A stretch of DNA of 64,000 nucleotides, taken from NCBI RefSeq assembly GCF_026000375.1, contig NZ_AP026708.1:2764001-2828000 (forward strand), written 5' to 3'. The notes under the pieces are model-generated. The model was not told where the DNA came from and ran no database searches. It saw only the letters and a list, made by a program, of their open reading frames with translations. The position numbers and the translations under genes were made by a program. This stretch comes from Pseudodesulfovibrio portus (GTDB lineage: Bacteria; Desulfobacterota; Desulfovibrionia; Desulfovibrionales; Desulfovibrionaceae). Shown in pieces: positions 43,573-57,436 of this stretch (within the stretch, counting starts at the first letter, position 1; every line of letters starts with the position of its first letter).

Positions 43573-44334
43573 CTACTTCCACGGCTCCATGAAGGAGTCG
43601 CTGGTGTTGCCGTTTTCGATGTGGGTGATGAGGGCGGAGCCGAACACGGCGGCGTCCATGAGGCCCTCGAACTGTTTGAGCTGGTCCGGGTGCTTGATGC
43701 CGAAGCCCAGCGCGATGGGGATGTCGAAGACTTCCTTGGCCTCGGCCAGTTTTTCCTTGATCTTGGCGGGCAGGGACTCGCGCTGGCCGGTGGTGCCGAG
43801 GACCGAGACGAAGTAGCAGAACCCCTGGGCGTTTTCGGCATACAGGGCCATGCGTTCCCTGGTGGTGTTCAGGCCGACCAGGGGGACCAGGGACACGCCG
43901 TGCGGCTCGATGGCGTCCTTGACGAAGCCGGACTCCTCGAACGGCATGTCCGCGATGATCAGTCCGGACACGCCTGCGGCCTCGCAGTCCGCGCCGAACT
44001 TGTCGAGCCCGTACTGGTAGACCGGGTTGAGGTAGCCCATGAGCAGCAGGGCCGCGTTGAACCGGCCCTTGCGCTCCTTGAGGCCGTCGAATATCCACGC
44101 CAGGTTGATGCCGTCGGCCAGGCATTTGAGCGACGCCTTTTCCACCACCGGGCCGTCGGCCACGGGGTCGGAGAACGGCATGCCGATCTCGATGACGCCG
44201 GCACCCGCCGCGTCCAGTTCTTCCAATTCCTTCCAGAATTGTTCGCGAGAGGGAAATCCTGCGGGCAGAAAGGGGATGAGTCCCACTTTGCCTTGTTTCC
44301 TCGCCTCTTCTATCTTGATTTGCATCGGATTCAT
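43573..44334 (-). CDS. trpA: Tryptophan synthase alpha subunit
   Basis: A 253-residue TIM-barrel lyase that releases indole from indole-3-glycerol phosphate. It shows LIPFLPAGFPS, VIEIGMPFSDPVADGP with the catalytic acid region, LLMGYLNPVYQYG, and the C-terminal GFGIKHPDQL. The start is MNPMQIKIEEA after AGGTGAGG; the longer frame runs into repeat sequence. Last gene of the aromatic operon, separated from trpB by a repeat. Confidence 0.96.
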   Translation of the reverse strand: MNPMQIKIEEARKQGKVGLIPFLPAGFPSREQFWKELEELDAAGAGVIEIGMPFSDPVADGPVVEKASLKCLADGINLAWIFDGLKERKGRFNAALLLMGYLNPVYQYGLDKFGADCEAAGVSGLIIADMPFEESGFVKDAIEPHGVSLVPLVGLNTTRERMALYAENAQGFCYFVSVLGTTGQRESLPAKIKEKLAEAKEVFDIPIALGFGIKHPDQLKQFEGLMDAAVFGSALITHIENGNTSDSFMEPWK

Positions 44335-44350
44335 CGTATTCACCTCACCT

Positions 44351-44478
44351 GTGCGCCCCTTGCGCGAAGCGCACACAAAAAGTTTAGGAAGGGAGAGGGG
44401 ATGGGGGTCCGGGGGAAGGGGAGAGGGACAACCCTTTTCAAAGGGTTTCCCTCTCCCCTTCCCCCGGCCGCCGGAGGC
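44351..44478 (-). repeat. GC-rich hairpin repeat inserted between trpB and trpA
   Basis: Inverted copy: GCCTCCGGCGGCC, stem GGGGGAAGGGGAGAGGG against CCCTCTCCCCTTCCCCC around AACCCTTTTCAAAGGGTT, then CCCCCATCCCC, CCTAAACTTTTTGTG and a small terminal hairpin. The stem differs from the other copies by paired changes. Confidence 0.85.
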
Positions 44479-44484
44479 TCCCCC

Positions 44485-45648
44485 TTACAGAATTTGGTCC
44501 AGTATCCCGAGGTCCTTGTCTCCCCGTCCGGACAGGCAGACGAGCACGGACCTGCCTTGCAGTTCGGCCTTGTTCTCGATGGCGTAGGCCACGGCGTGGG
44601 AGGATTCGAGCGCCGGGATGATGCCCTCGCGCCGGGACAGGGCCTTGAAGGCGTTGAGCGCCTGGCCGTCGTTGATGGTGGTGTATTTCACCCGCCCGGT
44701 GGCCTGGAGATGGGCGTGCTCGGGGCCGACGCCGGGGTAGTCCAGGCCGGGGGCCACGGAATGGGACGGCAGGATCTGGCCTTCGTCGGTCTGCAGCAGC
44801 TTGGTGACCATGCCGTGCAGCACGCCGTTGGTGCCGTGGTCGAGCGGAGCGGAGTCGCAGCAGCCCGGCTCGCCGGTGCCCGCCGCTTCAACGCCCACGA
44901 TCCTGACGGACTCGTCCGGGATGAAGTGGTGGAACATGCCGATGGCGTTGGAGCCGCCGCCCACGCAGGCCACGACCACGTCCGGCAGGCTGCCGTCGTT
45001 GCGGTCCATGAACTGCCGCCGCGCCTCCTTGGAGATGACCTGCTGGAATCCGCGCACCAGGGTGGGGAACGGGTGCGGCCCGGCAGCCGTGCCGAAGCAG
45101 TAGTGGGTGTTCTCCTGGTCCGCGATCCAGCGCCTGAGGGCTTCGTTGATGGCGTCCTTGAGGGTCTTGGTGCCGGACTCGACGGACACGATTTCCGCGC
45201 CCATGAGCCGCATGCGGTTGACGTTGGGGGCCTGGCGCACGATGTCCGTGGCGCCCATGTAGATGACCGCCTTCATGTCGAGCATGGCCGCGGCCACGGT
45301 GGTGGCCACCCCGTGCATGCCCGCGCCGGTCTCGGCCAGGAGCACTTCCTTGCCCATCATCTTGGCCAGCAGTCCCTGGCCCAGGCAGTTGTTGATCTTG
45401 TGCGCGCCCGAGTGGTTCAGGTCCTCGCGCTTGAGCCACAGGTCCAGGCCCAGGTCCTTGGACAGGTTGGGGCAGTGCGTGATGGTCGAGGGTCGGCCCA
45501 CGTTTTCCTCGAGCATGTGGGCAAACCGCGTCTGGAACTCCTCGGACGGGAGGATGGTCTCCATGGCCTGCTCGAGCTCGATGAGCGGCGGCATGAGCAG
45601 CTCGGGGATGAACTGCCCGCCGAAGTCGCCGAAATAACCTTTCTTCAT
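44485..45648 (-). CDS. trpB: Tryptophan synthase beta subunit
   Basis: A 387-residue PLP enzyme joining indole and serine to make tryptophan. LKREDLNHSGAHKINNCLGQ contains the PLP lysine; AETGAGMHGVATT and the phosphate-binding loop CVGGGSNAIGMF are present. Normal length for TrpB1. Forms an alpha2-beta2 complex with TrpA. Confidence 0.97.
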   Translation of the reverse strand: MKKGYFGDFGGQFIPELLMPPLIELEQAMETILPSEEFQTRFAHMLEENVGRPSTITHCPNLSKDLGLDLWLKREDLNHSGAHKINNCLGQGLLAKMMGKEVLLAETGAGMHGVATTVAAAMLDMKAVIYMGATDIVRQAPNVNRMRLMGAEIVSVESGTKTLKDAINEALRRWIADQENTHYCFGTAAGPHPFPTLVRGFQQVISKEARRQFMDRNDGSLPDVVVACVGGGSNAIGMFHHFIPDESVRIVGVEAAGTGEPGCCDSAPLDHGTNGVLHGMVTKLLQTDEGQILPSHSVAPGLDYPGVGPEHAHLQATGRVKYTTINDGQALNAFKALSRREGIIPALESSHAVAYAIENKAELQGRSVLVCLSGRGDKDLGILDQIL

Positions 45649-45657
45649 GGTAAATCC

Positions 45658-46281
45658 TTATTCGTATTCCGCGAGAATATCGAAGACTTCCCGCAGCTTT
45701 GCTTCGTCCTTGATGCCCGGAGCCTTTTCCACGCCTGAATTGATGTCCAGGCCGGAAGGGTTCAGGGCCATGGCCTCGCGTATGTTGTGCGGCCCTAAGC
45801 CGCCTGCAAGGAACCAAGGTGTTTGTATTTCAATATCTTGCAGGATGCCAAAATCAATGGTCCTGCCGGTTCCGCCCTGGCCGATCCTGCCCGCGTCGAG
45901 CAGGAAATGGCCGCACGCTTCCTCAAATCCCTCCAGATCGCGCAACAGCGCCGCAGCCGATGCATATGTTTCCGGCCAGAACACGCGGATGGACCGGTCC
46001 GGGCCGATGCGCCAGCAGAAGTGCATGTCCTGGTTGCCGTGGAGCTGTGCGGCGTGCAGGCCGCAATGCTCCATGATCTCAAGAACCTCTTCGTGGGGCT
46101 GGTCCACAAAGACGCCGACCTTGGTGATCCCGGTCTTGACCGAGGCCACGAAGTCCGGGTCCACGTTGCGCGGGGATTTGGGGTGGAAGATGAAGCCGAG
46201 CAGGTCCGCGCCGAGCGCGGCGCACAGCTCCACATCCTGCATGCGGGTCATGCCGCAGATCTTGACCAGGGGGCGAGACAT
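45658..46281 (-). CDS. trpF: Phosphoribosylanthranilate isomerase
   Basis: A 207-residue TIM barrel. VKICGMTRMQDVELCAALGAD contains the catalytic Cys, GFIFHPKSPRNV is typical, and the C-terminal phosphate-binding segment is GLDINSGVEKAPGIKD. It isomerises N-(5-phosphoribosyl)anthranilate in tryptophan synthesis. One base separates it from trpC. Confidence 0.95.
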   Translation of the reverse strand: MSRPLVKICGMTRMQDVELCAALGADLLGFIFHPKSPRNVDPDFVASVKTGITKVGVFVDQPHEEVLEIMEHCGLHAAQLHGNQDMHFCWRIGPDRSIRVFWPETYASAAALLRDLEGFEEACGHFLLDAGRIGQGGTGRTIDFGILQDIEIQTPWFLAGGLGPHNIREAMALNPSGLDINSGVEKAPGIKDEAKLREVFDILAEYE

Positions 46282-46282
46282 T

Positions 46283-47039
46283 TTAGGCTCCCGTGAGTTC
46301 GGCCAGCTTGGCTCCGGGGTCTTCGGCGGTCATCAGGCATGTGCCGATGAGCACGGCGTCGAAGCCGAGCGAGGCCATTTCCTCGACCTGGCTGCGCTCG
46401 GACACGCCGGATGCGCAAATCCACAGCTCGCCTTCCTGCTTCTGCTTGATGAAGCGGCGGGCCTGGTCGAGGGTGATTTCCAGAGTGTCCAGGTCGCGGT
46501 TGTTGACCTGGATGATGTCGGCTCCGGCTGCGCGGGCCATGTCCAGGTCCGCCTGGTCGAATATCTCGACCACCGGGGCCAGGCCGGGCATGCGGGCGAT
46601 CTCGATGAGCTGCGCAAGGTGGTTGACGTCTTCGCACATGCGGGCGATGAGCAGCACGGCCGAGGCCGGGCTTGAGGCGGTCATGGCCACCTGGAGCGGG
46701 TCGAAGATGAAGTCCTTGCGCAACAGCGGCACGCCGGGCCGGCTCATCATGAACAGGAAGTCCGGGGTGCCCTTGAAGTACTTGTGCTCGGTGAGCACGG
46801 AGATGGCCGCCGCCCCGTTGTTCGCGTACATGTCGGCGAAATCCATGGGGTTCAGGCTGTCCCGCAGGATGCCTGCCGACGGGCTGGCGGGCTTGAACTC
46901 GGCGATGACCGCGCCCGGCCCCTTGGCCCTGACGGCTTCGACGAACGAGGGGCGTTCCCCCTGGTACACGGCGGGCAACCGGCCCTCCACGAAGTCCTTT
47001 TGCAGGGAGTCGATCTCCAGCTGCTTGGCTTCCCTGAAT

Positions 47040-47050
<11 letters not shown>
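46283..47050 (-). CDS. trpC: Indole-3-glycerol phosphate synthase
   Basis: A 255-residue TIM barrel. AVIAEFKPASPSAG holds the catalytic Lys (variant of the EIKxxSPS motif), LRKDFIFDPLQV and IIQVNNRDLDTLEI are the other family motifs. It closes the indole ring from CdRP. Overlaps trpD by 11 bases, so the two are translationally coupled. Confidence 0.95.
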
Positions 47051-48047
<997 letters not shown>

Positions 48048-48051
48048 GGTT

Positions 48052-48624
48052 CTATCCTTTCATGTTCAGGAAGTTTGCAAGCAGCTTGGGGCCGTCCGGA
48101 GTGAGGATTGATTCCGGGTGGAACTGGACTCCGAACCAGGGGCGGTCCTTGTATTGCAGCCCCATGACCTCGCCCTGCCGGGTGCGGGCCGTGACCTCGA
48201 TCATGTCGGCGGCCTTTTCCGCCGGGACGATGAGCGAGTGGTAGCGGCAGACTTCGAACGGGGAGTCGAGCCCGGCGAAAACGCCCCGGCCCTCGTGGAC
48301 CACCATGGAGGTCTTGCCGTGCATGATGCGCCCTGCGCGCTCGACCGGAGCCCCGGCGAAGTGCCCCAGGGTCTGGTGGCCCAGGCATACGCCGAGCACC
48401 GGGATCTCCTTGGGCAGCCGGGCCAGGAACTCCAGGCAATAGCCAGCGTTCTCCGGGTTGGAGGGGCCGGGCGAGAGGCAGACGCGGGTGAGCTTGCCGC
48501 TCTCGGCCAGTTCCAGGACCTCCTCCCGGTCGTTGCGGATGACCACCGGGTCGGCCCCCAGCTGCTGGAAGGCCTGCACCAGGTTGAAGGTGAAGGAGTC
48601 GAAATTATCGATCAGCAAAAACAT
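48052..48624 (-). CDS. trpG: Anthranilate synthase glutamine amidotransferase component
   Basis: A 190-residue class I glutamine amidotransferase. It starts FLLIDNFDSFTFNL; the nucleophile is in PVLGVCLGHQT and the His-Glu pair in GVQFHPESILT. It supplies ammonia to TrpE. Its start lies 20 bases inside trpE and follows GGGAGG, so the subunits are made together. Confidence 0.96.
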   Translation of the reverse strand: MFLLIDNFDSFTFNLVQAFQQLGADPVVIRNDREEVLELAESGKLTRVCLSPGPSNPENAGYCLEFLARLPKEIPVLGVCLGHQTLGHFAGAPVERAGRIMHGKTSMVVHEGRGVFAGLDSPFEVCRYHSLIVPAEKAADMIEVTARTRQGEVMGLQYKDRPWFGVQFHPESILTPDGPKLLANFLNMKG

Positions 48625-50074
48625 CGGTGCCTCCCTTGCCGGTGATGACTTCGAGCAGCACCCGGGCCTTGTTGTTGCATTCAACCCATTCGGCTTCGGC
48701 GTTGGAATCGTAGACGATGCCCGCGCCCGCCTGCCAGTGGCACTTGCCGTCGCGGACCCACATGGACCGGATGGTGATGCCGGTGTCGAGGGAGACCTCG
48801 CCGTCGTCCAGTCCCATCCAGCCGATGCAGCCGCCGTAGGGGCCGCGATCCTGGGGCTCCAGGTCGGCGATGATCTCCATGGCCCTGATCTTGGGCGCGC
48901 CGGACAGGGTGCCCGCCGGGAAGGTGGCCTGGAGCACGTCCACGCCGTCCAACCCGTCCTTGAGCTCGCCCTCGACGTAGGAGGTGAGGTGCATGACGTG
49001 GGAGAACCGCTCGACGTTCATGAATTTTTCCACGGTCACGGTGCCGGGCTTGGAGATGCGGCCCAGGTCGTTTCGGCCCAGGTCCACGAGCATGACGTGC
49101 TCGGCCCGTTCCTTGGGATCGGCCAGCAGCTCCTCTTCCAGCCTGATGTCTTCCTTCACGGTATCGCCTCTCCAGCGGGTGCCCGCGATGGGCCGGACCT
49201 CGAGCTGCCCGGCAGCGGACCGGACCATCATCTCCGGCGAGGAGCCGAGCAGGGTGGTGCCGCACGATTTGCCCATTGACGGGCAATCCGGGAATTTCAT
49301 GTAGAACATGAACGGGGAGGGGTTGGCCTGCCTGAGCCGCCGGTAGATTTTGAACGGCTCGTCGGGCACGGGTACGGTGAACCGGGTGGAGAGCACCACC
49401 TGGATGCACTCGCCCTCGGCGATGAGTTCCTTGCACCGCTCCACACCGGCCATGTATTCTTCCTTGCCGGGGTGGACCGTGGGCGTCCCGGCCTCGGGGG
49501 CGGTCAGGTCCGCGCCCCACTGTATGGGAGCGGGCATGGGTGCCGCGCCTTCGTCCAGGGAGAGGTAGCAGCAGGAGTGGCGCAGGTGGTCGAAGAGGAC
49601 CATCTGGCCCGGCAGGACCAGGCACGCCTCGGCGTCGGCGGGTTTGCACACCTCCGCCAGCTTGCGCTCGAACATCCCGGCCACGCCGTAGCCGAAGTAT
49701 CCGTATAGGCCGCGCGTCAGGCCCGGCAGTCCGTCGCGCCCGATGGTCGCGGAGGATCCGCCGGTGGTCTTCTGCTCGATGGACAGCATCTGAACGGCCT
49801 GTTTCACGCCGCTGAGATAGTCCAGTCCTTCCAGTTTCTTGAGGGGGGCGAGCCGGTCGTCGGCCACCTCCACCACCAGCTTACCGTCCACGGGGTGCAG
49901 GGTCAGGCGGTAGTCGAAGGCGATGAGGGAATAGCGGCCCAGCCGTCCGTCCACCTCGGCCGATTCCAGGAGAATTCCCGGCTGGTCGCCCACCAGCCCC
50001 ATGTACAGGCTGATGGTGGTCTGCACGTCGGCAGGCAACCATTTGCCATGCTGCGTGAGGGTAATCGTATCCAT
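48605..50074 (-). CDS. trpE: Anthranilate synthase component I
   Basis: A 489-residue chorismate-utilising enzyme. The LLES motif in GILLESAEVDGRLGRYS is the tryptophan feedback site of TrpE; catalytic motifs include RPIAGTRWRGDT, MLVDLGRNDLGRIS and GTLSGAPKIRAME. The ATG giving MDTITLTQHGKW follows AAAGGATACTGACA. First trp gene of the block; a terminator-like hairpin lies between it and tyrA. Confidence 0.96.
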   Translation of the reverse strand: MDTITLTQHGKWLPADVQTTISLYMGLVGDQPGILLESAEVDGRLGRYSLIAFDYRLTLHPVDGKLVVEVADDRLAPLKKLEGLDYLSGVKQAVQMLSIEQKTTGGSSATIGRDGLPGLTRGLYGYFGYGVAGMFERKLAEVCKPADAEACLVLPGQMVLFDHLRHSCCYLSLDEGAAPMPAPIQWGADLTAPEAGTPTVHPGKEEYMAGVERCKELIAEGECIQVVLSTRFTVPVPDEPFKIYRRLRQANPSPFMFYMKFPDCPSMGKSCGTTLLGSSPEMMVRSAAGQLEVRPIAGTRWRGDTVKEDIRLEEELLADPKERAEHVMLVDLGRNDLGRISKPGTVTVEKFMNVERFSHVMHLTSYVEGELKDGLDGVDVLQATFPAGTLSGAPKIRAMEIIADLEPQDRGPYGGCIGWMGLDDGEVSLDTGITIRSMWVRDGKCHWQAGAGIVYDSNAEAEWVECNNKARVLLEVITGKGGTDVFADR

Positions 50075-50194
50075 TGTCAGTATCCTTTGGTTACCGATTA
50101 TGTTTAATGATATGGCCTGGGAATGACTTCCCATCCTTTGATCTTCTTCCGGTTTTCATGTCTCTTTCACGTGAATCCCATGACATTCTCCTTG

Positions 50195-50276: not shown

Positions 50277-51047
50277 TTAATATGTTTCGTTACGCCACCA
50301 CCACTGGGCCCGCTCGGCGAGCAGGTCGAGATCGCCGCCCGCAGCCAGGGCGAGGTAGGACATGAACTTGCGCGAGACCTCCTGCAAAAACGGGTTGGCC
50401 TCGGAGATGATTTCGAACAGCTCGGTGTCCTGGGTGAACATCTTCGCTCCGGCGTCCAGCCTGCGCTGGAAGGACGGGGTGACGAAGTTCTCGATGCCGT
50501 CCATGTCCCTGGCGGCGGCCAGGTAGGCGGCGGTGGTGGTGTAGTTCAGCCCCTGGATCAGGGCCATGGCCCGGTCGTGTTCTTCGGGCGTGGAGTCAAA
50601 GCAGGTGTACCCGCAGCGGGTGAACAGGTCGGTGACCGCTTCTGCGGCTTTTGCATCACTGTCGCGGCCGGGCATGATCGCGATCCTGGGCTCGAACCCT
50701 TCCGGGATCACCGGCCCGAAGAGCGGGTGGGTGCCCACCACCGGGCCGGAGTATTTGTCGAGCATGGTCCGGATCGGGTGGACCTTCACGCTGCCCACGT
50801 CGCAAAGGATCGTGGTCGTGTCCATGAACGGCAGCAGGGTGTTCAGGACGTCGTCCATGGCCGTTACCGGGACGCTGAGCAGGAGCAGATCGCAGCCGTC
50901 GAGGGCGGCGCGCACGGCGTCGTCCCCGTAGGGCCGGTTCAGGGGCGCGACCGTGCAGCCGAGTGCGGCGAAGTCCCTGCTGAAGAGACCGCCCATCTGC
51001 CCGTTCGCGCCCACGATGGCGATTTTTTCGATTCCTGCTGTTGCCAT
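50277..51047 (-). CDS. tyrA: Prephenate dehydrogenase
   Basis: A 256-residue NAD(P)-dependent enzyme of tyrosine synthesis. The Rossmann motif is IAIVGANGQMGG, and the catalytic region GPVVGTHPLFGPVIP is typical of prephenate/arogenate dehydrogenases. There is no chorismate mutase or ACT domain, so the mutase activity should come from PheA. Lies between aroA and the trp genes. Confidence 0.92.
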   Translation of the reverse strand: MATAGIEKIAIVGANGQMGGLFSRDFAALGCTVAPLNRPYGDDAVRAALDGCDLLLLSVPVTAMDDVLNTLLPFMDTTTILCDVGSVKVHPIRTMLDKYSGPVVGTHPLFGPVIPEGFEPRIAIMPGRDSDAKAAEAVTDLFTRCGYTCFDSTPEEHDRAMALIQGLNYTTTAAYLAAARDMDGIENFVTPSFQRRLDAGAKMFTQDTELFEIISEANPFLQEVSRKFMSYLALAAGGDLDLLAERAQWWWRNETY

Positions 51048-51063: not shown

Positions 51064-52407
51064 TTAATCGGTGACCTTCTTCCATTCGTCGAAGAAGCCC
51101 GGGAATGATTTGTTGACGCAGGCCGGATTGTCAAGCGTTACGTCCATGTCCGCCAGTTTGAACAGGGACATGGACATGGCCATGCGGTGGTCGTTGTGGG
51201 TGGTGAAGTCCACCGCGTGGCCCTTGGGCAGCCGTCCGGGCCGGATGATCAGGGAGTCGCCCGCGATCTCGGTCTCGGCCTGGGTCCGGGCCACTTCGGT
51301 GGCGCAGGCCGCCAGCCGGTCGGTTTCCTTGATGCGCAGGTGGGCCACGTTCTCGATGGTCGTCGGGGTGGAGGCGAAGGCGGCCACGGCGGAAACCGTG
51401 GGCACCAGGTCCGGGCAGCGGCCCATGTCCACGCTGATGCCCCTCAGGCGGGACGGGGTGACCAGGATGCCGTCGAAGGTGACCTTGATGTCCGCGCCCA
51501 TCTGGCTGAGGATGTCCATGATCGCCCGGTCGCCCTGGAGCGAATCGGCGGCCAGCCCCTTGATCAGCACCGGGCGTTGGCCCACGGCGCCGGCGGCCAG
51601 GAAGTAGCTGGCGTTGGACCAGTCGCCTTCCACGATGTAGTCGGTGGGCTGGTAGCCGGTGGGCTGGACGGTGAACCGGACCTTGCCGGGGGTCACGCCC
51701 TTGACCGAGCGCCAGGGGACCTCCTTCCAGGTGGAGCGGCCTTCGCGGACTTCCACGGTGAAGCCCGCCTTGAAGTCCTCCATGATGCGCAGGGTCAGGG
51801 CCACGTAGGGCCAGGACACGGCCTTCTTGCCGGTCACGGAGATGGTTATGGCATGATCAGCCAAGGGCGCACCCAGGAGCAGGCCGGAGAGGTATTGGCT
51901 GCTTTCTTCCAGGGTGATTTCCACGCTTTTCTTCGTGTAGCCCTTGCTGGTCATAACAAAGGGGAGGAACCCCTCTTTGCCGTCGTACTTGAATTTTGTT
52001 CCCAGCCCGGACAGGGCCGTGGTCAGTTCGGCCATGGGCCGCTCGTGCATGCGCTTGGCGCCGTGCACCCGGAAGGTGCCGCGCCCGGCGGCGGCCACGC
52101 CGGTCATCAACCGGCAGGTGGTCCCGGATTCGTGCATGTACAGTTCATGCGGCTCCTCGTCCTTGTGCTTGCCGTCGGCGTTGCCCCCCTTGGGGCCGTC
52201 CTCCATGCCGGTGACGACGAGCAGGCCGTCCCTGTCCTCGATCCGCGCGCCGCAGGCCGCCAGGCAGCCCCGGGTGCGGGTGATGTCATCGGATTCGAGG
52301 ATGCCGGATATCTCGGATTCGCCGTTGGCCAAGGCTGCGGCGATGAGCGTGCGGTGGGACAGCGACTTGCTGGCCGGGGCGTTGATGGTGATCGGTCCCT
52401 TGGTCAT
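51064..52407 (-). CDS. aroA: 3-phosphoshikimate 1-carboxyvinyltransferase (EPSP synthase)
   Basis: A 447-residue two-domain enzyme making EPSP from shikimate 3-phosphate and PEP. It shows NAPASKSLSHRTLIAAALA, the phosphate/PEP loop YMHESGTTCRLMTG (the common Gly-Asn replaced by His-Glu) and RIKETDRLAACATEV. The ATG follows AGGAGG and overlaps the last base of the pheA stop as TAATG. The variant loop is a divergence to note; the remaining family motifs are intact. Confidence 0.94.
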   Translation of the reverse strand: MTKGPITINAPASKSLSHRTLIAAALANGESEISGILESDDITRTRGCLAACGARIEDRDGLLVVTGMEDGPKGGNADGKHKDEEPHELYMHESGTTCRLMTGVAAAGRGTFRVHGAKRMHERPMAELTTALSGLGTKFKYDGKEGFLPFVMTSKGYTKKSVEITLEESSQYLSGLLLGAPLADHAITISVTGKKAVSWPYVALTLRIMEDFKAGFTVEVREGRSTWKEVPWRSVKGVTPGKVRFTVQPTGYQPTDYIVEGDWSNASYFLAAGAVGQRPVLIKGLAADSLQGDRAIMDILSQMGADIKVTFDGILVTPSRLRGISVDMGRCPDLVPTVSAVAAFASTPTTIENVAHLRIKETDRLAACATEVARTQAETEIAGDSLIIRPGRLPKGHAVDFTTHNDHRMAMSMSLFKLADMDVTLDNPACVNKSFPGFFDEWKKVTD

Positions 52408-53507
52408 TATCGTTCCTCCTGGGTGGGGTAGGTGCCGAGCACGCGAAGCGTGTGGCACTGCTCCCTGATGTCCTGAAGCACGTCCTCGTACCGGCCGCCC
52501 GACATGTCGCAGGCCAGGTCGGCGAAGAAGACGTACTTCCATTTTTCGCCCTTGAACGGGCGGGATTCGAGCTTGGACAGGTTGATGGATTGATGGGCCA
52601 TGGTCGTCAGCACCCGGGCCAGCGCACCGGGCCGGTCGGGCAGGGTGAACAGGATGGTGGTCTTGTCCCGCTTGTCCTCCTGGGAGGGCGACGGGCCGAT
52701 GATGAAAAAGCGCGTCCAGTTGTCGGGCTGGTCCTCGATGTTCTGGGCCAGCACATTCAGGCCGTGCATGTCGGCCAGCTTGATGTGGCCGATCACGGCG
52801 GCGGCCTTTTTCCCGGCCACGACCTCGGCGGCCTCCGCAGTGGATTCCAGGGGGATGGTCGGCACGTCGCGCATGTTGGCGCGCAGCCATTCCCGGCATT
52901 GCCCCAACGGCTGCGGGTGGGAGTAGATGACCTCCACGTCCTCCAGCCTCTCGGCGTTGGACATGAGGCTGTGGCTGATCTTGCTGAAGACCTCGGCCTG
53001 GATGTAGACCGTGTATTTCATGAACAGGTCCACCACCTGGCCCACGGTGCCCTCTATGGAATTTTCCAGCGGGATGACGCCCAGCTCCGCACCTTCCTCG
53101 GCCACGGCCCGGAAGATCTCCTCGAAGTTGTTCTTGGGCGTGAGCGAGGCCGAGGTGCCCATGTGCTCGATGGCCGCGAAGTAGGAAAAGGTGCCCTCGG
53201 GGCCGAGGTAGACCACCCGCTCGGGCCGCTGCAGATGGCGGGAGGAGGACATGATCTCCCGGTAGATGGTGCGCAGGTGCTTGTCCGGCAGCGGGCCGGG
53301 GCTGGAATCCGCGATCTTGTTCAGCACTTCCTGCTCGCGAAACGGCTTGTAGATGGTCTCGCCCGTGGCCGCCTTGTACCGGCCCACGCCGAGGCTCACC
53401 TCGGCGCGCTTGTTGAGCAGGTCCACGATTTCGCGGTCGATGGCGTCGATGTTCTCGCGCAGTTCGCCGAGATCGGGAATGTCGTTCTGTTCAGTCTTGT
53501 CAGCCAT
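52407..53507 (-). CDS. pheA: Bifunctional chorismate mutase/prephenate dehydratase
   Basis: A 366-residue P-protein: AroQ-type chorismate mutase (residues about 10-95, LRENIDAIDREIVDLLNKRA), prephenate dehydratase (about 100-275, VVYLGPEGTFSYFAA and IPLENSIEGTV) and a C-terminal ACT domain (about 280-360, LPDRPGALARVL) with the ESRP motif that binds phenylalanine. It makes phenylpyruvate and also supplies prephenate to TyrA; feedback inhibition by Phe is expected. Confidence 0.96.
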   Translation of the reverse strand: MADKTEQNDIPDLGELRENIDAIDREIVDLLNKRAEVSLGVGRYKAATGETIYKPFREQEVLNKIADSSPGPLPDKHLRTIYREIMSSSRHLQRPERVVYLGPEGTFSYFAAIEHMGTSASLTPKNNFEEIFRAVAEEGAELGVIPLENSIEGTVGQVVDLFMKYTVYIQAEVFSKISHSLMSNAERLEDVEVIYSHPQPLGQCREWLRANMRDVPTIPLESTAEAAEVVAGKKAAAVIGHIKLADMHGLNVLAQNIEDQPDNWTRFFIIGPSPSQEDKRDKTTILFTLPDRPGALARVLTTMAHQSINLSKLESRPFKGEKWKYVFFADLACDMSGGRYEDVLQDIREQCHTLRVLGTYPTQEER

Positions 53508-53683: not shown

Positions 53684-53743
53684 CCCCGCGAAGCGGCCAT
53701 AAAAAGTTTGGGAAAAGGAGGGGATGGGGGGGCGGGGGCTACC
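53684..53743 (-). repeat. Partial GC-rich hairpin repeat after the DHQ synthase II gene
   Basis: Only the distal half of the repeat (GCCCCC, CATCCCCTCC, CCCAAACTTTTTATGGCC and the CGCTTCGCGGGG end) is present, inverted relative to the copy at 53522, and touching the stop codon of the aroB'-type gene. Confidence 0.75.
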
Positions 53744-54722
53744 CTTCCTTGATCTCTTCCTTGATGCGCATGCCGAAGTGGCGTCCGGCCTCGTCGGTCC
53801 TGACCATGATTTTGTCGCCCTTCTTCAGGGTGACCACGGACACGGGTTCGCCCTTGTCCGAGACCACGCGGATGGTTTCCGCGTTCTGCAGGAACACCTG
53901 GCCGGACTTGACGCCGTCATCGGTCTTCACCTCCGCCTTGATGAGCAGCATGGGCCGGACCTCCACCTTGACGCGGCCCACGGTGGCCAGGGAGGTGGCC
54001 CCGCCCGCGCCCACGATGAGCACGTCGTCGCCCGCGCCCAGTTCTTCGAGATAGGTGGTCTTGTCGCCGGGCATCTGGGCGTAGGCGTGGACCGCGCCCG
54101 CATTGATGCGGAAGGGGCGTGCGGCCACATAGGGGTTGGACTCGGTCTCGGCGTGGACCAGGAAGGAGAAGGCCGAGGAATTGCCGATGAGCATGCCCTG
54201 GCCCCTCTTGAGCACGGAGATGGTGTCCACGCAGACGCGGTGACCCAGGCCGGTGGATTCTATTTCGGTGACGGTGGCGGCTTGAAGATCCATGGTTCCC
54301 TGCGAGAGTTTGAGTTCGGCGACGATCTGCTTGAGGTCGGCGGCGCCCTCGGGCAGGACCACGATGGTGTCGCAGCCGCGCTCCAGGATGCCCGCCGCCA
54401 GCACGGCCCGGTCCAGGGATTCGCATTCCAGGGCCAGGGAGTCCACCTGGGCCAGGATGTTCTCCACCGGGATGATCTCCCATCCCTTCTTGAGGACCAC
54501 GTCCTTGCCTGCCTTGGCGGCTTTGACGGCCACGTCCTCGTCCGCCTTCTTGGTCAGTTCCACCGTGACCATGTCTTCCGGGGTGAGGGTGGTGATCTTG
54601 CTCAGGGCTTCGACGGCGGCCACGTGGTTCTTGTCGACCATGACGGCGTCCACGCCGGATTCCAGGGCCAGGGTGACCAGTTTCTTGTCGAAGGGGACGG
54701 ACTTGAAGATGACTTTTTTCAT
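53739..54722 (-). CDS. 3-dehydroquinate synthase II (archaeal type, AroB')
   Basis: A 327-residue protein matching the archaeal-type dehydroquinate synthase that oxidatively deaminates 2-amino-3,7-dideoxy-D-threo-hept-6-ulosonate. Conserved stretches are DAVMVDKNHVAAVEAL, VCVDTISVLKRGQGMLIGNS, RPFRINAGAVHAYAQMPGDK and YLEELGAGDDVLIV. It lies 10 bases after the ADH synthase gene, the typical pairing. Replaces the usual AroB route from DAHP. Confidence 0.95.
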   Translation of the reverse strand: MKKVIFKSVPFDKKLVTLALESGVDAVMVDKNHVAAVEALSKITTLTPEDMVTVELTKKADEDVAVKAAKAGKDVVLKKGWEIIPVENILAQVDSLALECESLDRAVLAAGILERGCDTIVVLPEGAADLKQIVAELKLSQGTMDLQAATVTEIESTGLGHRVCVDTISVLKRGQGMLIGNSSAFSFLVHAETESNPYVAARPFRINAGAVHAYAQMPGDKTTYLEELGAGDDVLIVGAGGATSLATVGRVKVEVRPMLLIKAEVKTDDGVKSGQVFLQNAETIRVVSDKGEPVSVVTLKKGDKIMVRTDEAGRHFGMRIKEEIKEG

Positions 54723-54732
54723 GGTGCTACCG

Positions 54733-55530
54733 TTATGCGTTGAGATGGTTGAGGGCGGCTTCCACGGTCTCGTCGCCGTGCACGATCATGTTCAGCGATT
54801 CCACCAGGCGGGTGGGATTCTTGTGCTGGAACACGTTGCGGCCCACGGACAGCCCTGCGCCGCCTGCTTCAAGGGAATCATGCACCATCTGAAGGAAAGC
54901 CCTGGTGCTGTCAAGTTTCGGCCCGCCCGCGATGACCACCGGGACACAGCAGGAGTCGCAGACCTTGGCAAAGGTGTCGATGTCGCCGGTGTAGGGGACC
55001 TTGACCACGTCTGCGCCCAACTCGGTGCCCACGCGGGCGCAGTGGGCGACCACTTCGGGATCGTACTCGTCCTTCACCTTGGGACCGCGCGCGTAGACCA
55101 TGGCCAGCAGCGGGATGCCCCAGTTGGCGGCGTCCGAGGCCATTCTGCCGAAATCGTTCAGCATGGCGGATTCGGTCTCGTCGCCCAGGTTGCAGTGGAT
55201 GGACACGGCGTCCGCGCCCAGCCGGATGGCGTCCTCCACCGAGGCTACCAGGGACTTGGCGTTGGGGAAGGGCGACAGGGACGTGGAGGCGGACAGGTGG
55301 ACGATGAGCCCGATGTCCTTGCCCTCGGCGCGGTGGCCGCAGCGGACCAGCCCCTTGTGCTCGATGACGGCGTTGGCCCCGCCGTCCACGACCTTGCCCA
55401 CGGCTTCGCGCATGTCCACCAGCCCGTCGATGGGGCCGACTGTCACGCCGTGGTCCATGGGGACCACGATGGTGCGGCCCGTGTTGCGGTTGAAGATGCG
55501 CTCCAGTCTGATTGCTTTGCCGATGTGCAT
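54733..55530 (-). CDS. 2-amino-3,7-dideoxy-D-threo-hept-6-ulosonate synthase (AroA', class I aldolase)
   Basis: A 265-residue DeoC/FbaB-type class I aldolase. [15 protein letters not shown], the Schiff-base region [11 protein letters not shown] and [14 protein letters not shown] fit ADH synthase, which condenses 6-deoxy-5-ketofructose phosphate and aspartate semialdehyde at the start of the archaeal-type shikimate pathway. The ATG giving [13 protein letters not shown] follows AAGGAGAGAGAAC. First structural gene behind the aromatic leader. Confidence 0.93.
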
Positions 55531-55581
55531 GTTCTCTCTCCTTGATTGTTCGCTCAAGGGGGCGGGGTGTCCGGCGGTTAT

Positions 55582-55620
55582 AAAAAAACAAGGGCCGCCG
55601 GCTTTCGCCCGCGGCCCTTG
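55582..55620 (-). terminator. Attenuator terminator of the aromatic operon
   Basis: A very stable stem (CAAGGGCCGC with GCGGCCCTTG, extended by a second GC block around the loop GAAA) is followed on the minus strand by seven Ts. It lies 40 bases after the leader-peptide stop codon and 52 bases before the ADH synthase start. The sequence just upstream (CCTCTTCAAGG) can instead pair with GAAGAGG inside the leader ORF, a plausible antiterminator. Confidence 0.85.
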
Positions 55621-55659
55621 AAGAGGATTCCTGTTTTGCTTCTGTAGTCCACCAACTGG

Positions 55660-55755
55660 TTACACAGCACCTCTTCCAAGCCCGCGAGCGTGGCTGTACC
55701 AATACCAAAAATAAAAGTTGGAAAAGTATGCGTTGGAAACAGTGGTGGTCTTCAT
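55660..55755 (-). CDS. Aromatic amino-acid leader peptide (31 aa)
   Basis: A 31-codon frame on the minus strand. Residues 10-20 read YFSNFYFWYWY: four Tyr, three Phe and two Trp in 11 positions, after MKTTTVSNA and before SHARGLGRGAV. It ends 40 bases before a strong terminator and lies upstream of the genes for all three aromatic amino acids. This is the layout of a ribosome-mediated attenuator: shortage of a charged aromatic tRNA would stall the ribosome and free the following GCTTGGAAGAGG to block the terminator. A Shine-Dalgarno sequence is not obvious. The peptide itself probably has no other function. Confidence 0.85.
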   Translation of the reverse strand: MKTTTVSNAYFSNFYFWYWYSHARGLGRGAV

Positions 55756-55763
55756 GGCCACTA

Positions 55764-55792
55764 GAGCTACACCGCGAGGGTTGTTCTGTCAA
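55764..55792 (-). promoter_or_regulatory. Possible sigma-70 promoter of the aromatic operon
   Basis: A perfect -35 hexamer TTGACA (55787-55792) is followed 17 bases later by TAGCTC (55764-55769), a poor -10. If used, transcription would start within a few bases of the leader ATG. Weakly supported. Confidence 0.3.
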
Positions 55793-56077: not shown

Positions 56078-57436
56078 ATGTTTTCGAGAAAGTCCCCGAC
56101 CCATGTTTCCAAGAGGCTCGCCATAGGCGTGGCCGCTTTGGTTGCAGCCCTGGCTCCCACCCTCGCCTATGCAGAAGAGGTGGAGTATCTCACCCAGTCC
56201 AACGGCAACATCCTTTGGACCCTGATCGCCGCCTGTCTGGTCATGCTCATGCAGGCGGGCTTCGCGTGCGTTGAGGCCGGTTTCACCCGCGCCAAATCCG
56301 CCGGCAACATCATGATGAAGAACTTCCTGGATTTCTCCGCCGGTTCCCTCGTCTTCTTCCTGTTCGGTTTTGCCGTCATGTTCGGCCTGGATGCGGGCGG
56401 TTTCATCGGCACCTCCGGCTACATGCTGGGCGGCGTCGCCGAATCCGACATCATGTGGACCTACACCTTCTGGTTCTTCCAGTCCGTGTTCGCAGCCACC
56501 GCCGCCACCATCGTTTCCGGCGGCATGGCCGAGCGCACCAAGTTCGGCAGCTACATTATCGTATCCATCGTGATCACCGGCCTCATCTACCCCATCTCCG
56601 GCCACTGGGCCTGGGGTTCCCTGTGGCTGGGCGATGACGGCGCGGGTTGGCTGGAAGGCCTCGGCTTCTGCGACTTCGCCGGTTCCTCCGTGGTCCACTC
56701 CGTGGGTGGCTGGGTCGCCCTGGCTGGTGCCCTGGTTCTCGGTCCCCGTGTCGGCAAGTACTCCGAAGACGGAAAGGCCAAGGCCATTCCCGGTCACAAC
56801 ATCCCCCTGGCCGGTCTGGGCGTGTTCCTGCTCTGGTTCGGTTGGTTCGGCTTCAACCCCGGTTCCACCACCACCGCCGACAACACCATCGGCCTGATCG
56901 CCATGAACACCTCCCTGGCCGCTGCCGGCGGCGTGCTCGGCGCCATGTTCATCTCCTGGTTCCGTTACGGCAAGCCCGACATCTCCATGACCATGAACGG
57001 CGCCCTGGCCGGCCTGGTCGGCATCACCGCCCCCTGTGCCACCGTCACTCCCGGCGCTTCCATCCTCATCGGCCTCATCGCCGGTCTCCTGGTCGTCCTG
57101 TCCATCGAATTCATCGACAAGGTGCTCAAGATCGACGATCCGGTCGGCGCATCCTCGGTCCACGGCGTCTGCGGCGCCTGGGGCACCATTGCGGCGGGCC
57201 TGTTCAACGTCGACGGCGGATTGTTCTACGGCGGCGGCATGGCCCAGCTCGGCGTGCAGCTGATCGGCGTGGGCGTGTTCTTCATCTGGGCTTTCGGTGC
57301 CGGTTACATCCTGATGTCCGCCGTCAAGGCCATCTTCGGCATCCGCGTCAAGAAGGAAGAAGAGCTCAAGGGCCTGGACATCGCCGAACACGGCTCCGAG
57401 TCCTACAACGGTTTCCAGCTCTTCAGCAACGAATAG
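56078..57436 (+). CDS. amtB: Ammonium transporter AmtB
   Basis: A 452-residue protein with a signal-peptide-like N-terminus (GVAALVAALAPTLAYA) and eleven expected membrane helices. The pore histidines lie in VVHSVGG and SVHGVCG; MLMQAGFACVEAGFTRAK and GFNPGST are conserved. It conducts ammonia/ammonium across the inner membrane. The ATG follows GAGGAG. The PII gene follows 42 bases downstream, so PII should gate the channel. Confidence 0.97.
   Translation: MFSRKSPTHVSKRLAIGVAALVAALAPTLAYAEEVEYLTQSNGNILWTLIAACLVMLMQAGFACVEAGFTRAKSAGNIMMKNFLDFSAGSLVFFLFGFAVMFGLDAGGFIGTSGYMLGGVAESDIMWTYTFWFFQSVFAATAATIVSGGMAERTKFGSYIIVSIVITGLIYPISGHWAWGSLWLGDDGAGWLEGLGFCDFAGSSVVHSVGGWVALAGALVLGPRVGKYSEDGKAKAIPGHNIPLAGLGVFLLWFGWFGFNPGSTTTADNTIGLIAMNTSLAAAGGVLGAMFISWFRYGKPDISMTMNGALAGLVGITAPCATVTPGASILIGLIAGLLVVLSIEFIDKVLKIDDPVGASSVHGVCGAWGTIAAGLFNVDGGLFYGGGMAQLGVQLIGVGVFFIWAFGAGYILMSAVKAIFGIRVKKEEELKGLDIAEHGSESYNGFQLFSNE

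Follow-up and report, generated by a model that had tools for sequence, protein, structure and literature searches.

A probable ribosome-mediated attenuator with a leader peptide for phenylalanine, tyrosine and tryptophan before the archaeal-type aromatic operon of Pseudodesulfovibrio portus

Background

The leader peptides of the enterobacterial trp, phe and his attenuators hold regulatory codons for one amino acid each and are read from frames led by a Shine-Dalgarno (SD) sequence, and the leaders of the E. coli operons ilvGMEDA and ilvBN are multivalent, with branched-chain amino acids as their subject. Elsewhere, T-boxes control the transcription of aromatic genes. The leader described here differs from the enterobacterial ones in that it would serve three amino acids, is probably leaderless and stands before a different operon. 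With the ilvGMEDA and ilvBN leaders it shares the principle that a single leader responds to more than one end product of the operon that follows; the likeness is one of description and not of sequence, and the E. coli end products are branched-chain, not aromatic. Both E. coli operons are among those listed in PMC1183508. The architecture, as far as trpL and pheL are described in PMC11802643, is common to the enterobacterial attenuators and this locus: a short ORF with regulatory codons, an antiterminator formed by segments 2 and 3, a terminator formed by segments 3 and 4, and possibly a protector formed by segments 1 and 2.

Three other described leaders come close in one respect each. The AroR leader of Corynebacterium glutamicum aroF contains Phe-Tyr-Phe and is reported to respond to Phe limitation (PMC11802643); like the present leader it precedes the first enzyme of the aromatic pathway, but that account mentions no Trp, and enzyme and phylum are different. 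The uORFC-13-1 motif before Acholeplasma aroF, known from 24 representatives in one genus and environmental DNA (PMC8632094), likewise combines a short ORF containing one or more Phe codons with a terminator before a first-step aromatic enzyme, but as described there it involves Phe only. The attenuator leader ORF of rnTrpL/peTrpL in Sinorhizobium meliloti begins with an AUG that is the 5' end of the transcript, as the AUG of the present leader probably is too, but its account in PMC7298713 concerns Trp only.

For Desulfovibrio itself, Table 7 of PMC1173090 (2005), drawing on Merino's database, lists a putative attenuator ahead of the D. vulgaris genes aroA'>aroB'>aroQ-pheA>aroF>tyrA>[trp operon]. 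Operon type, relatedness of the organism and the proposal of attenuation, there drawn from a database of predicted attenuators, agree with the present case, but the entry gives no leader peptide, specificity, covariation or distribution; the word 'leader' occurs 0 times in that paper and no leader peptide is named. The view in the earlier note that no description was known thus has to be narrowed: the attenuator had been listed in that table, and the peptide had not. Within the literature found, no aromatic leader peptide is described for Desulfovibrio or its relatives, nor do the relevant parts of PMC545781, PMC2965389 and PMC4833913 treat one; Vitreschak 2004 and Lopatovskaya 2010 were outside the scope and may list delta-proteobacterial attenuators.

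Results and discussion

The operon and the leader ORF

All coordinates refer to the window, i.e. the whole 64-kb stretch of DNA that was analysed, which lies in a genome of 3.4 Mb on a single contig whose closest named relatives are mostly Pseudodesulfovibrio; features are on the minus strand unless stated otherwise. The operon of 12 genes 3' of the leader extends from the gene of 2-amino-3,7-dideoxy-D-threo-hept-6-ulosonate (ADH) synthase (54733–55530, TIGR01949), with its Shine-Dalgarno sequence AGGAG at 55538–55542, to trpA (43573–44376, PF00290). Between them lie genes for 3-dehydroquinate synthase II (53739–54722, NF002628), chorismate mutase/prephenate dehydratase (52407–53507, profile match), EPSP synthase (aroA; ORF 51064–52899, TIGR01356 over residues 172–609, so that the true start may be internal) and a prephenate dehydrogenase-like protein (tyrA, 50277–51047, match below curated cut-offs), followed by trpE (48605–50134, TIGR00564, below its curated cut-off), trpG for the glutamine amidotransferase (48052–48684, PF00117), trpD (47040–48047, TIGR01245), trpC (46283–47050, match below curated cut-offs), trpF (45658–46281, PF00697) and trpB (44485–45648, PF00291). 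The operon makes Phe, Tyr and Trp, as the earlier note had stated. The corresponding D. hydrothermalis genes DESAMv2_21548–21557 change expression together under pressure (PMC4162548), which would fit a single control point and tests nothing here.

The leader ORF (55660–55755; ATG at 55755, stop codon ending at 55660) codes for 31 amino acids, MKTTTVSNAYFSNFYFWYWYSHARGLGRGAV. Its codons 10–20 (55696–55728) read YFSNFYFWYWY, so that nine of eleven residues are aromatic (3 Phe, 4 Tyr, 2 Trp). From the leader ATG to the ATG of the ADH synthase gene at 55530 there are 225 nt, and from the 3' end of the leader to that gene 129 nt. Position, composition and the downstream hairpin with its seven Ts were all recovered as the earlier note had reported them. 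Among 576 short ORFs (8–60 aa) on both strands of the 64-kb window, the runner-up to the 9 aromatics in 11 residues had 6.

Several features of the surroundings were recorded in passing. The ammonium transporter gene amt (56078–57436, plus strand) lies divergently upstream of the attenuator. The sequence GGUGG 3' of the leader stop codon (55649–55653) can pair with CCACC in codons 3–5 (55744–55748), and this possible extra long-range helix occurs in many members of the genus, as judged by eye. Codon usage of the leaders is opposite to that of the genes: TTT is preferred over TTC by 144:51 and TAT over TAC by 74:46 in 43 leaders of the family, and the corresponding ratios in 11 of the 12 operon genes, counted for the window genome only, are 16:120 and 9:58. 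Slow codons or avoidance of pairing are two readings of the TTT/TAT preference.

Conservation in the genus, the family and the phylum

As the leader of each locus we took the short ORF, up to 420 nt upstream, that was richest in aromatic residues. ADH synthase is present in 36 of 36 genomes of the genus that were searched, and at all 32 genus loci whose upstream DNA was read the leader is present, with 7–9 aromatics per 12 residues. The ORF that the earlier note had suggested seeking in relatives is thus not missing, and since it is kept in 32 of 32 loci, a chance ORF was rejected as its explanation. The aromatic run survives as well: across 30 genus sequences the residues Phe11, Phe16 and Trp19 never vary, and Tyr15 and Tyr18 are encoded by both Tyr codons, which argues for selection on the aromatic codons and not on the DNA alone. 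At position 20, 21 of these sequences have Tyr, 8 have Phe and 1 has Gln; at position 17, 19 have Trp and 11 have Gly. Columns without variation in the genus alignment fall in the aromatic run and in the hairpins alike.

At the level of the family, ADH synthase was found at E<=1e-100 in 169 of 199 genomes and 40 of 44 genera, and a leader with 6–11 aromatics per 12 residues precedes it in 39 of the 40 genera and in four named lineages (one representative each). The genus without one, g22, is represented by a 67%-complete genome in which the single match is another type of ADH synthase copy. In the phylum the synthase occurs in only 64 of 198 genomes; of the best-scoring 23 loci from outside the family, 22 came with upstream sequence, and in 18 of them this contains a leader of 6 or more aromatics. 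Leaders are also present in Desulfoluna (L045) and in a locus of the Desulfobacterales (L034). No leader with at least 6 aromatics was found at two named delta-proteobacterial loci (L032, L033) or at six loci outside the phylum (L035, L037, L039–L042).

Promoter and probable leaderless start

A -35 element TTGACA (55787–55792) is followed, after a 17-nt spacer, by a putative weak -10-like hexamer TAGCTC (55764–55769). Given that spacer after TTGAC, transcription would begin at the leader AUG, and we infer a start at the leader ATG or within about 2 nt of it, so that the leader ORF is probably leaderless. A strict consensus scan of the locus, which returned 0 promoters and 0 terminators, does not include the -10 element; that hexamer is weak, and the terminator stem has an internal G.G mismatch. 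Of 43 representatives, 25 have TTGAC 35–38 nt 5' of the leader ATG; an SD-like 4-mer stands ahead of the leader ORF in 13 of the 43 and ahead of the ADH synthase gene in 37. In g40, g6, g12, g39 and Mailhella, TTGAC is located 52–58 nt upstream of the leader ATG and is combined with an SD-like sequence, and in 13 of 43 representatives no TTGAC was found up to 60 nt upstream. The five lineages with the more distant TTGAC (L139, L141, L137, L125 and L038, respectively) retain the attenuator, which looks like a switch between leaderless and SD-led leader ORFs. Transcripts initiating 3' of the terminator were considered and rejected: the U-run is only 51 nt from the ATG of the ADH synthase gene, and the strict scan detected no promoter-like site there.

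Terminator, antiterminator and covariation

The intrinsic terminator hairpin (segments 3 and 4; 55589–55620) starts 39 nt 3' of the ORF and is followed by the seven T of the U-run (55582–55588). Folding and covariation delimit segment 2, the ORF tail GCUCGCGGGCUUGGAAGAGG (55670–55689), and its antiterminator partner segment 3, CCUCUUCAAGGGCCGCGGGC (55607–55626), which overlaps the 5' arm of the terminator. The full antiterminator pairs GCUCGCGG-G-CUU-G-GAAGAGG with CCUCUUC-AAG-GG-CCGCGGGC and comprises 18 bp. The pairing of CUU-GGAAGAGG with CCUCUUC-AAG that the earlier note had seen is right and is incomplete, for 8 further pairs, GCUCGCGG with CCGCGGGC, reach into the terminator 5' arm; the part that had been missed is the decisive part of the antiterminator. 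Segment 1, CUUUUCC in codons 10–12 (55720–55726), can pair by folding with GGAAGAG of segment 2 as a protector. The minimum free energy (MFE) structure of the full-length RNA (-64.3 kcal/mol, z -3.08) contains this protector, CUUUUCC:GGAAGAG, together with the terminator, and a shorter RNA, from codon 23 through segment 3, adopts the antiterminator (-35.3, z -3.46).

In an alignment of 30 genus sequences (A1), 91.7% of the 539 cells of the 18-pair antiterminator helix are paired. Changes on both sides of a pair occur in 15 cells, compared with a mean of 4.1 after shuffling, a number as high being reached by 0 of 500 shuffles; they affect 7 pairs, and the covariation score, too, was reached by 0 of 500 shuffles. 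The protector helix is paired in 95.2% of cells; covariation was looked for in the alignment and none was seen, and the truncated RNA does not prefer the protector.

Codon 24 gives the strongest individual evidence. In a second alignment (A2) of 42 chosen family sequences, 40 of them from the 109 distinct loci used for folding below and two (L022, L024) with hand-set coordinates that start a few nt off, the first base of this codon pairs with its partner in the terminator 5' arm as T-A in 20, C-G in 15, A-T in 1 and T-G in 5 sequences; with one gap, the pair is broken in 0 of 41. Codon 24 is Arg, Cys or Ser as its first base is C, T or A, and the partner is G, A or T. Since the same partner base is mismatched within the terminator in 36 of 42 sequences (A.G 19, G.G 14, G.A 2, A.A 1), the terminator cannot account for this covariation, and the antiterminator is supported by it. 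That the residue at codon 24 varies with the pairing of the RNA points to selection on RNA rather than peptide, and a pure peptide function was rejected because the leader tail varies in this way. An unaligned, rule-based reading of 63 loci gave C-G in 28, T-A in 20, A-T in 2 and T-G in 9, with 4 failures (2 A-G, 2 A-A); two of these, L029 and L091, were wrong-register picks according to the alignment, and the other two, L044 and L106, lay outside A2.

Tails and arms also match each other on average. Among 39 representatives, a tail pairs with its own arm at a mean of -33.2 kcal/mol and with the arms of other loci at -27.2 kcal/mol, and 0 of 20000 permutations gave as low a value. The effect is one in the mean and not in every locus, because the own arm ranks first for only 10 of 39 tails (median rank 4).

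Folding as a function of ribosome position

In an RNA that ends before segment 4, the antiterminator is predicted to form with P=1.0 while the ribosomal A site is at codons 8–18; the value for its lower part falls to 0.56 at codon 19 and to 0 from codon 20 on. By these probabilities seven of the nine aromatic codons would be productive stall sites and Trp19 partly so, and stalling at Tyr20, the final codon of the run, should be unproductive. The same behaviour was sought in 109 distinct loci, identical leader-to-terminator DNA being counted once and loci lacking a recognised terminator being excluded: 96 form at least 8 pairs when the ribosome is stalled and lose at least 4 when it is at the stop codon. 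With a mid-run stall, the tail does better than at least 19 of its 20 mononucleotide shuffles in 84 loci. The other 13 of the 109 consist of L151 and L155–L158 (five loci of a single outgroup family), L170, L171 and the Desulfoluna locus L045, plus five loci (L026, L096, L114, L120, L130) in which the antiterminator forms and too little of it is lost at the stop codon.

Equilibrium folding of the full-length RNA favours the terminator at every ribosome position; the antiterminator would therefore have to win kinetically. The truncated RNA prefers the antiterminator when no ribosome is present, too, so that basal termination in the absence of translation is not predicted by equilibrium folding, and a ribosome that has reached the stop codon still lets the upper 8-bp half of the antiterminator pair for as long as segment 4 has not been transcribed. 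On this analysis the decision between termination and read-through must be kinetic, as in classical attenuators.

Leader codons and the gene content of the operon

Among distinct leaders, the number of Trp codons in the run is 1–3 where trpE lies behind on the same strand (n=26, mean 1.88) and 0–2 where it does not (n=30, mean 0.70; p=9e-8). A hand choice of about one locus per group gave means of 1.94 (n=16) and 0.64 (n=22), with p=4e-6 overall and p=1.2e-4 inside the family. Transitions in trp gene content are few on the tree, so that these p-values overstate independence and are indicative only. The larger comparison took in all long loci with a leader, at least 6 kb of downstream DNA being required where trpE was lacking; 25 loci were dropped (11 without leader, 3 duplicates, 11 too short). 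The hand choice contains the window and L180 from one genus, and L200, L034, L045 and L038 were left out of it. Phe plus Tyr codons are similar with and without trpE (6.4 and 7.1), and all 16 hand-chosen leaders of trpE operons contain Phe, Tyr and Trp. In an outgroup locus (L209) with trpE directly behind the ADH synthase gene the leader has three Trp codons; four loci (L038, L197, L200, L207) keep two Trp codons although their operons lack trpE.

For 23 of 30 genomes searched, a separate trpE locus was found. An ATG-initiated ORF containing the pattern W.?W lies upstream in 23 of 23 of these; the reverse strand of these stretches has one in 1 of 23, and shuffled sequences in 42 of 1150. These separate trpE genes (L218–L240) have a Trp-rich leader ORF of their own, e.g. 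MLIGENWWWAL, like ordinary trp leaders. The comparison as a whole supports the view that the leader codons track the gene content of the operon.

Sister leaders of a second ADH synthase and a symporter

The second, monocistronic ADH synthase gene of the window genome (G000:C1:565354, L002/L178) is preceded by the leader MHHNTARFFFFFSFYYRNACGLGVH with its own terminator, and 14 of 14 second copies read in the genus have a poly-Phe leader with no Trp and 0–2 Tyr in the run. In other genera such leaders are Phe-rich in g29 (2 of 4 loci), g32 and g43, Tyr-rich in g9, g25, g27, g36 and g41 (nine loci), and mixed in g5 and g31. The Phe-rich leaders of the genus and the Tyr-rich ones of these five genera are those of L002/L178, L241–L252, L099, L121, L127, L148 and L256–L260. 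No aromatic leader was seen before the other two of the four g29 copies examined (L253, L254) or before the further ADH synthase copies L003, L103, L105, L109/L023, L111/L031, L115 and L129. Three of the latter (L103, L109/L023 and L111/L031; an ADH-synthase/aldolase copy) follow a conserved small frame, ...ELVFYSDNS.EFPP..Y.L.RDY.GDI.RA..G.V.WA.SDMT.K.

A scan of the own genome uncovered a third leader, MNTNQNRFGFFFFFSFRFFRSACGLGVCN, near G000:C1:261.2 kb (L265:1474-1563), before genes of a symporter accessory protein and an SSF sodium:solute symporter. The symporter was found at 30 distinct loci of the genus, two of which (L310, L320) have too little upstream DNA; the leader is present at the other 28 of 28, with at least 6 aromatics per 12 residues in 27 and 5 in one, and TTGAC lies 35–37 nt 5' of the ATG in 28 of 28. 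Judged by these sequences it is probably a poly-Phe, leaderless attenuator, and because a Phe leader precedes it, the symporter is predicted to import phenylalanine. The five-codon Phe/Tyr pattern is not enriched overall in the own genome (34 matches, 54 in the reversed control), and of 30 pattern-match loci read, two were leaders, those of the second ADH synthase and the symporter. Three candidates (L261, L267, L274) were rejected as not leader-like on re-inspection.

Mechanism and alternative explanations

We take the locus for a ribosome-mediated transcription attenuator whose trivalent leader peptide senses Phe, Tyr and Trp together, and put the probability of this at roughly 0.92. The reading, already that of the earlier note, is supported by leader conservation, antiterminator covariation, folding by ribosome position and the match of leader codons to operon genes. 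The expected features are there: codons for the end products of the operon in a short ORF, a terminator between ORF and gene, and, from covariation and folding, an antiterminator that excludes it; as far as sequence and comparison can establish them, these parts, their conservation, the covariation and the codon-gene match are firm. Transcription would begin at or adjoining the leader AUG, with translation initiating on the 5' end as it emerges. A shortage of charged tRNA for Phe, Tyr or Trp would stall the ribosome within codons 10–19 and leave segment 2 free to pair with segment 3; the resulting 18-bp antiterminator would occupy the 5' arm of the terminator, and RNA polymerase would proceed into the 12-gene operon. 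With all three amino acids plentiful, the ribosome would cover segment 2, segments 3 and 4 would pair, and termination would occur at the U-run. In this scheme the start at the AUG, the stalling of the ribosome, termination and a response to all three amino acids are inferred.

The most serious competitor is a real attenuator that answers mainly to one or two amino acids, the other aromatic codons being tolerated or kept for pairing, as UUUUCC might be for the protector. Phe11 and Trp19 are invariant in 30 of 30 sequences while position 17 varies between Trp and Gly, TTT TCC may be kept partly to pair with segment 2, and the theory in PMC1183508 holds that mixed codons reduce sensitivity; but the presence of Phe, Tyr and Trp in 16 of 16 chosen leaders of trpE operons, the drop in Trp codons once trpE leaves the operon, and the alternation at position 20 of mostly Tyr (21) and Phe (8) make this unlikely. 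It is still less probable that, besides attenuation, the peptide or the terminated small RNA acts in trans like peTrpL/rnTrpL of Sinorhizobium (PMC7298713): the terminated transcript would indeed be a leaderless mini-mRNA like rnTrpL, but beyond its aromatic run the peptide changes along with the pairing of the RNA, with R, C or S at codon 24.

Leader ORFs have been proposed to act on translation (PMC4833913), and the present one might govern ADH synthase by reinitiation or coupling; a strong hairpin with a U-run stands between ORF and gene, however, the leader ends 129 nt before the gene, and ADH synthase has an SD sequence of its own, so that we consider this highly improbable. Hardly any weight is left for another RNA switch (T-box, TRAP or metabolite riboswitch) with an incidental ORF. 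T-box control of aromatic genes elsewhere speaks for it, but in the window no Rfam family other than tRNAs, and thus no leader family and no T-box, reached its gathering score, the best sub-threshold match at relaxed thresholds being BjrC68 (24.1 bits against 39), and the invariant columns are found in both the aromatic run and the hairpins.

Conclusions

To judge by the literature searched, five things are new: a peptide covering three amino acids, an antiterminator that covaries, a start that is probably leaderless, leader codons that match the gene content, and sister cassettes rich in Phe or Tyr. With a Phe- or Tyr-rich leader before the second ADH synthase and a Phe leader before the symporter, the cassette looks re-coded gene by gene. 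We lean, with some reserve, towards an aromatic regulon in the Desulfobacterota that is controlled by attenuation only and replaces TyrR/TrpR, one RNA cassette being re-coded for each gene; TrpR and TyrR are absent outside the gammaproteobacteria in the data of PMC5343134. The cassette would consist of a leaderless ORF, a tail '(A)(C/R/S)G' for the antiterminator and a GGCCGC terminator. It would carry Phe, Tyr and Trp codons before the full operon, mostly Phe and Tyr where the trp genes have left, Phe- or Tyr-rich runs, depending on the genus, before the second ADH synthase isozyme, and Phe only before the sodium symporter, a phenylalanine importer on this reading; specificity would evolve by codon exchange with the switch retained.

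The locus would then represent a multivalent aromatic attenuator with all three end products in one peptide, family-wide and, with changes, phylum-wide, and leader codons that follow the gene content of the operon would provide a natural experiment on how attenuator specificity changes. The theory of PMC1183508 that mixed regulatory codons cost sensitivity becomes testable, and gene function may be predicted from the leader, in that a Phe-attenuated symporter should carry phenylalanine. For the organisms themselves, the attenuator would offer a regulatory explanation for the archaeal-type aromatic operon in a group that, going by PMC5343134, is without TrpR and TyrR.
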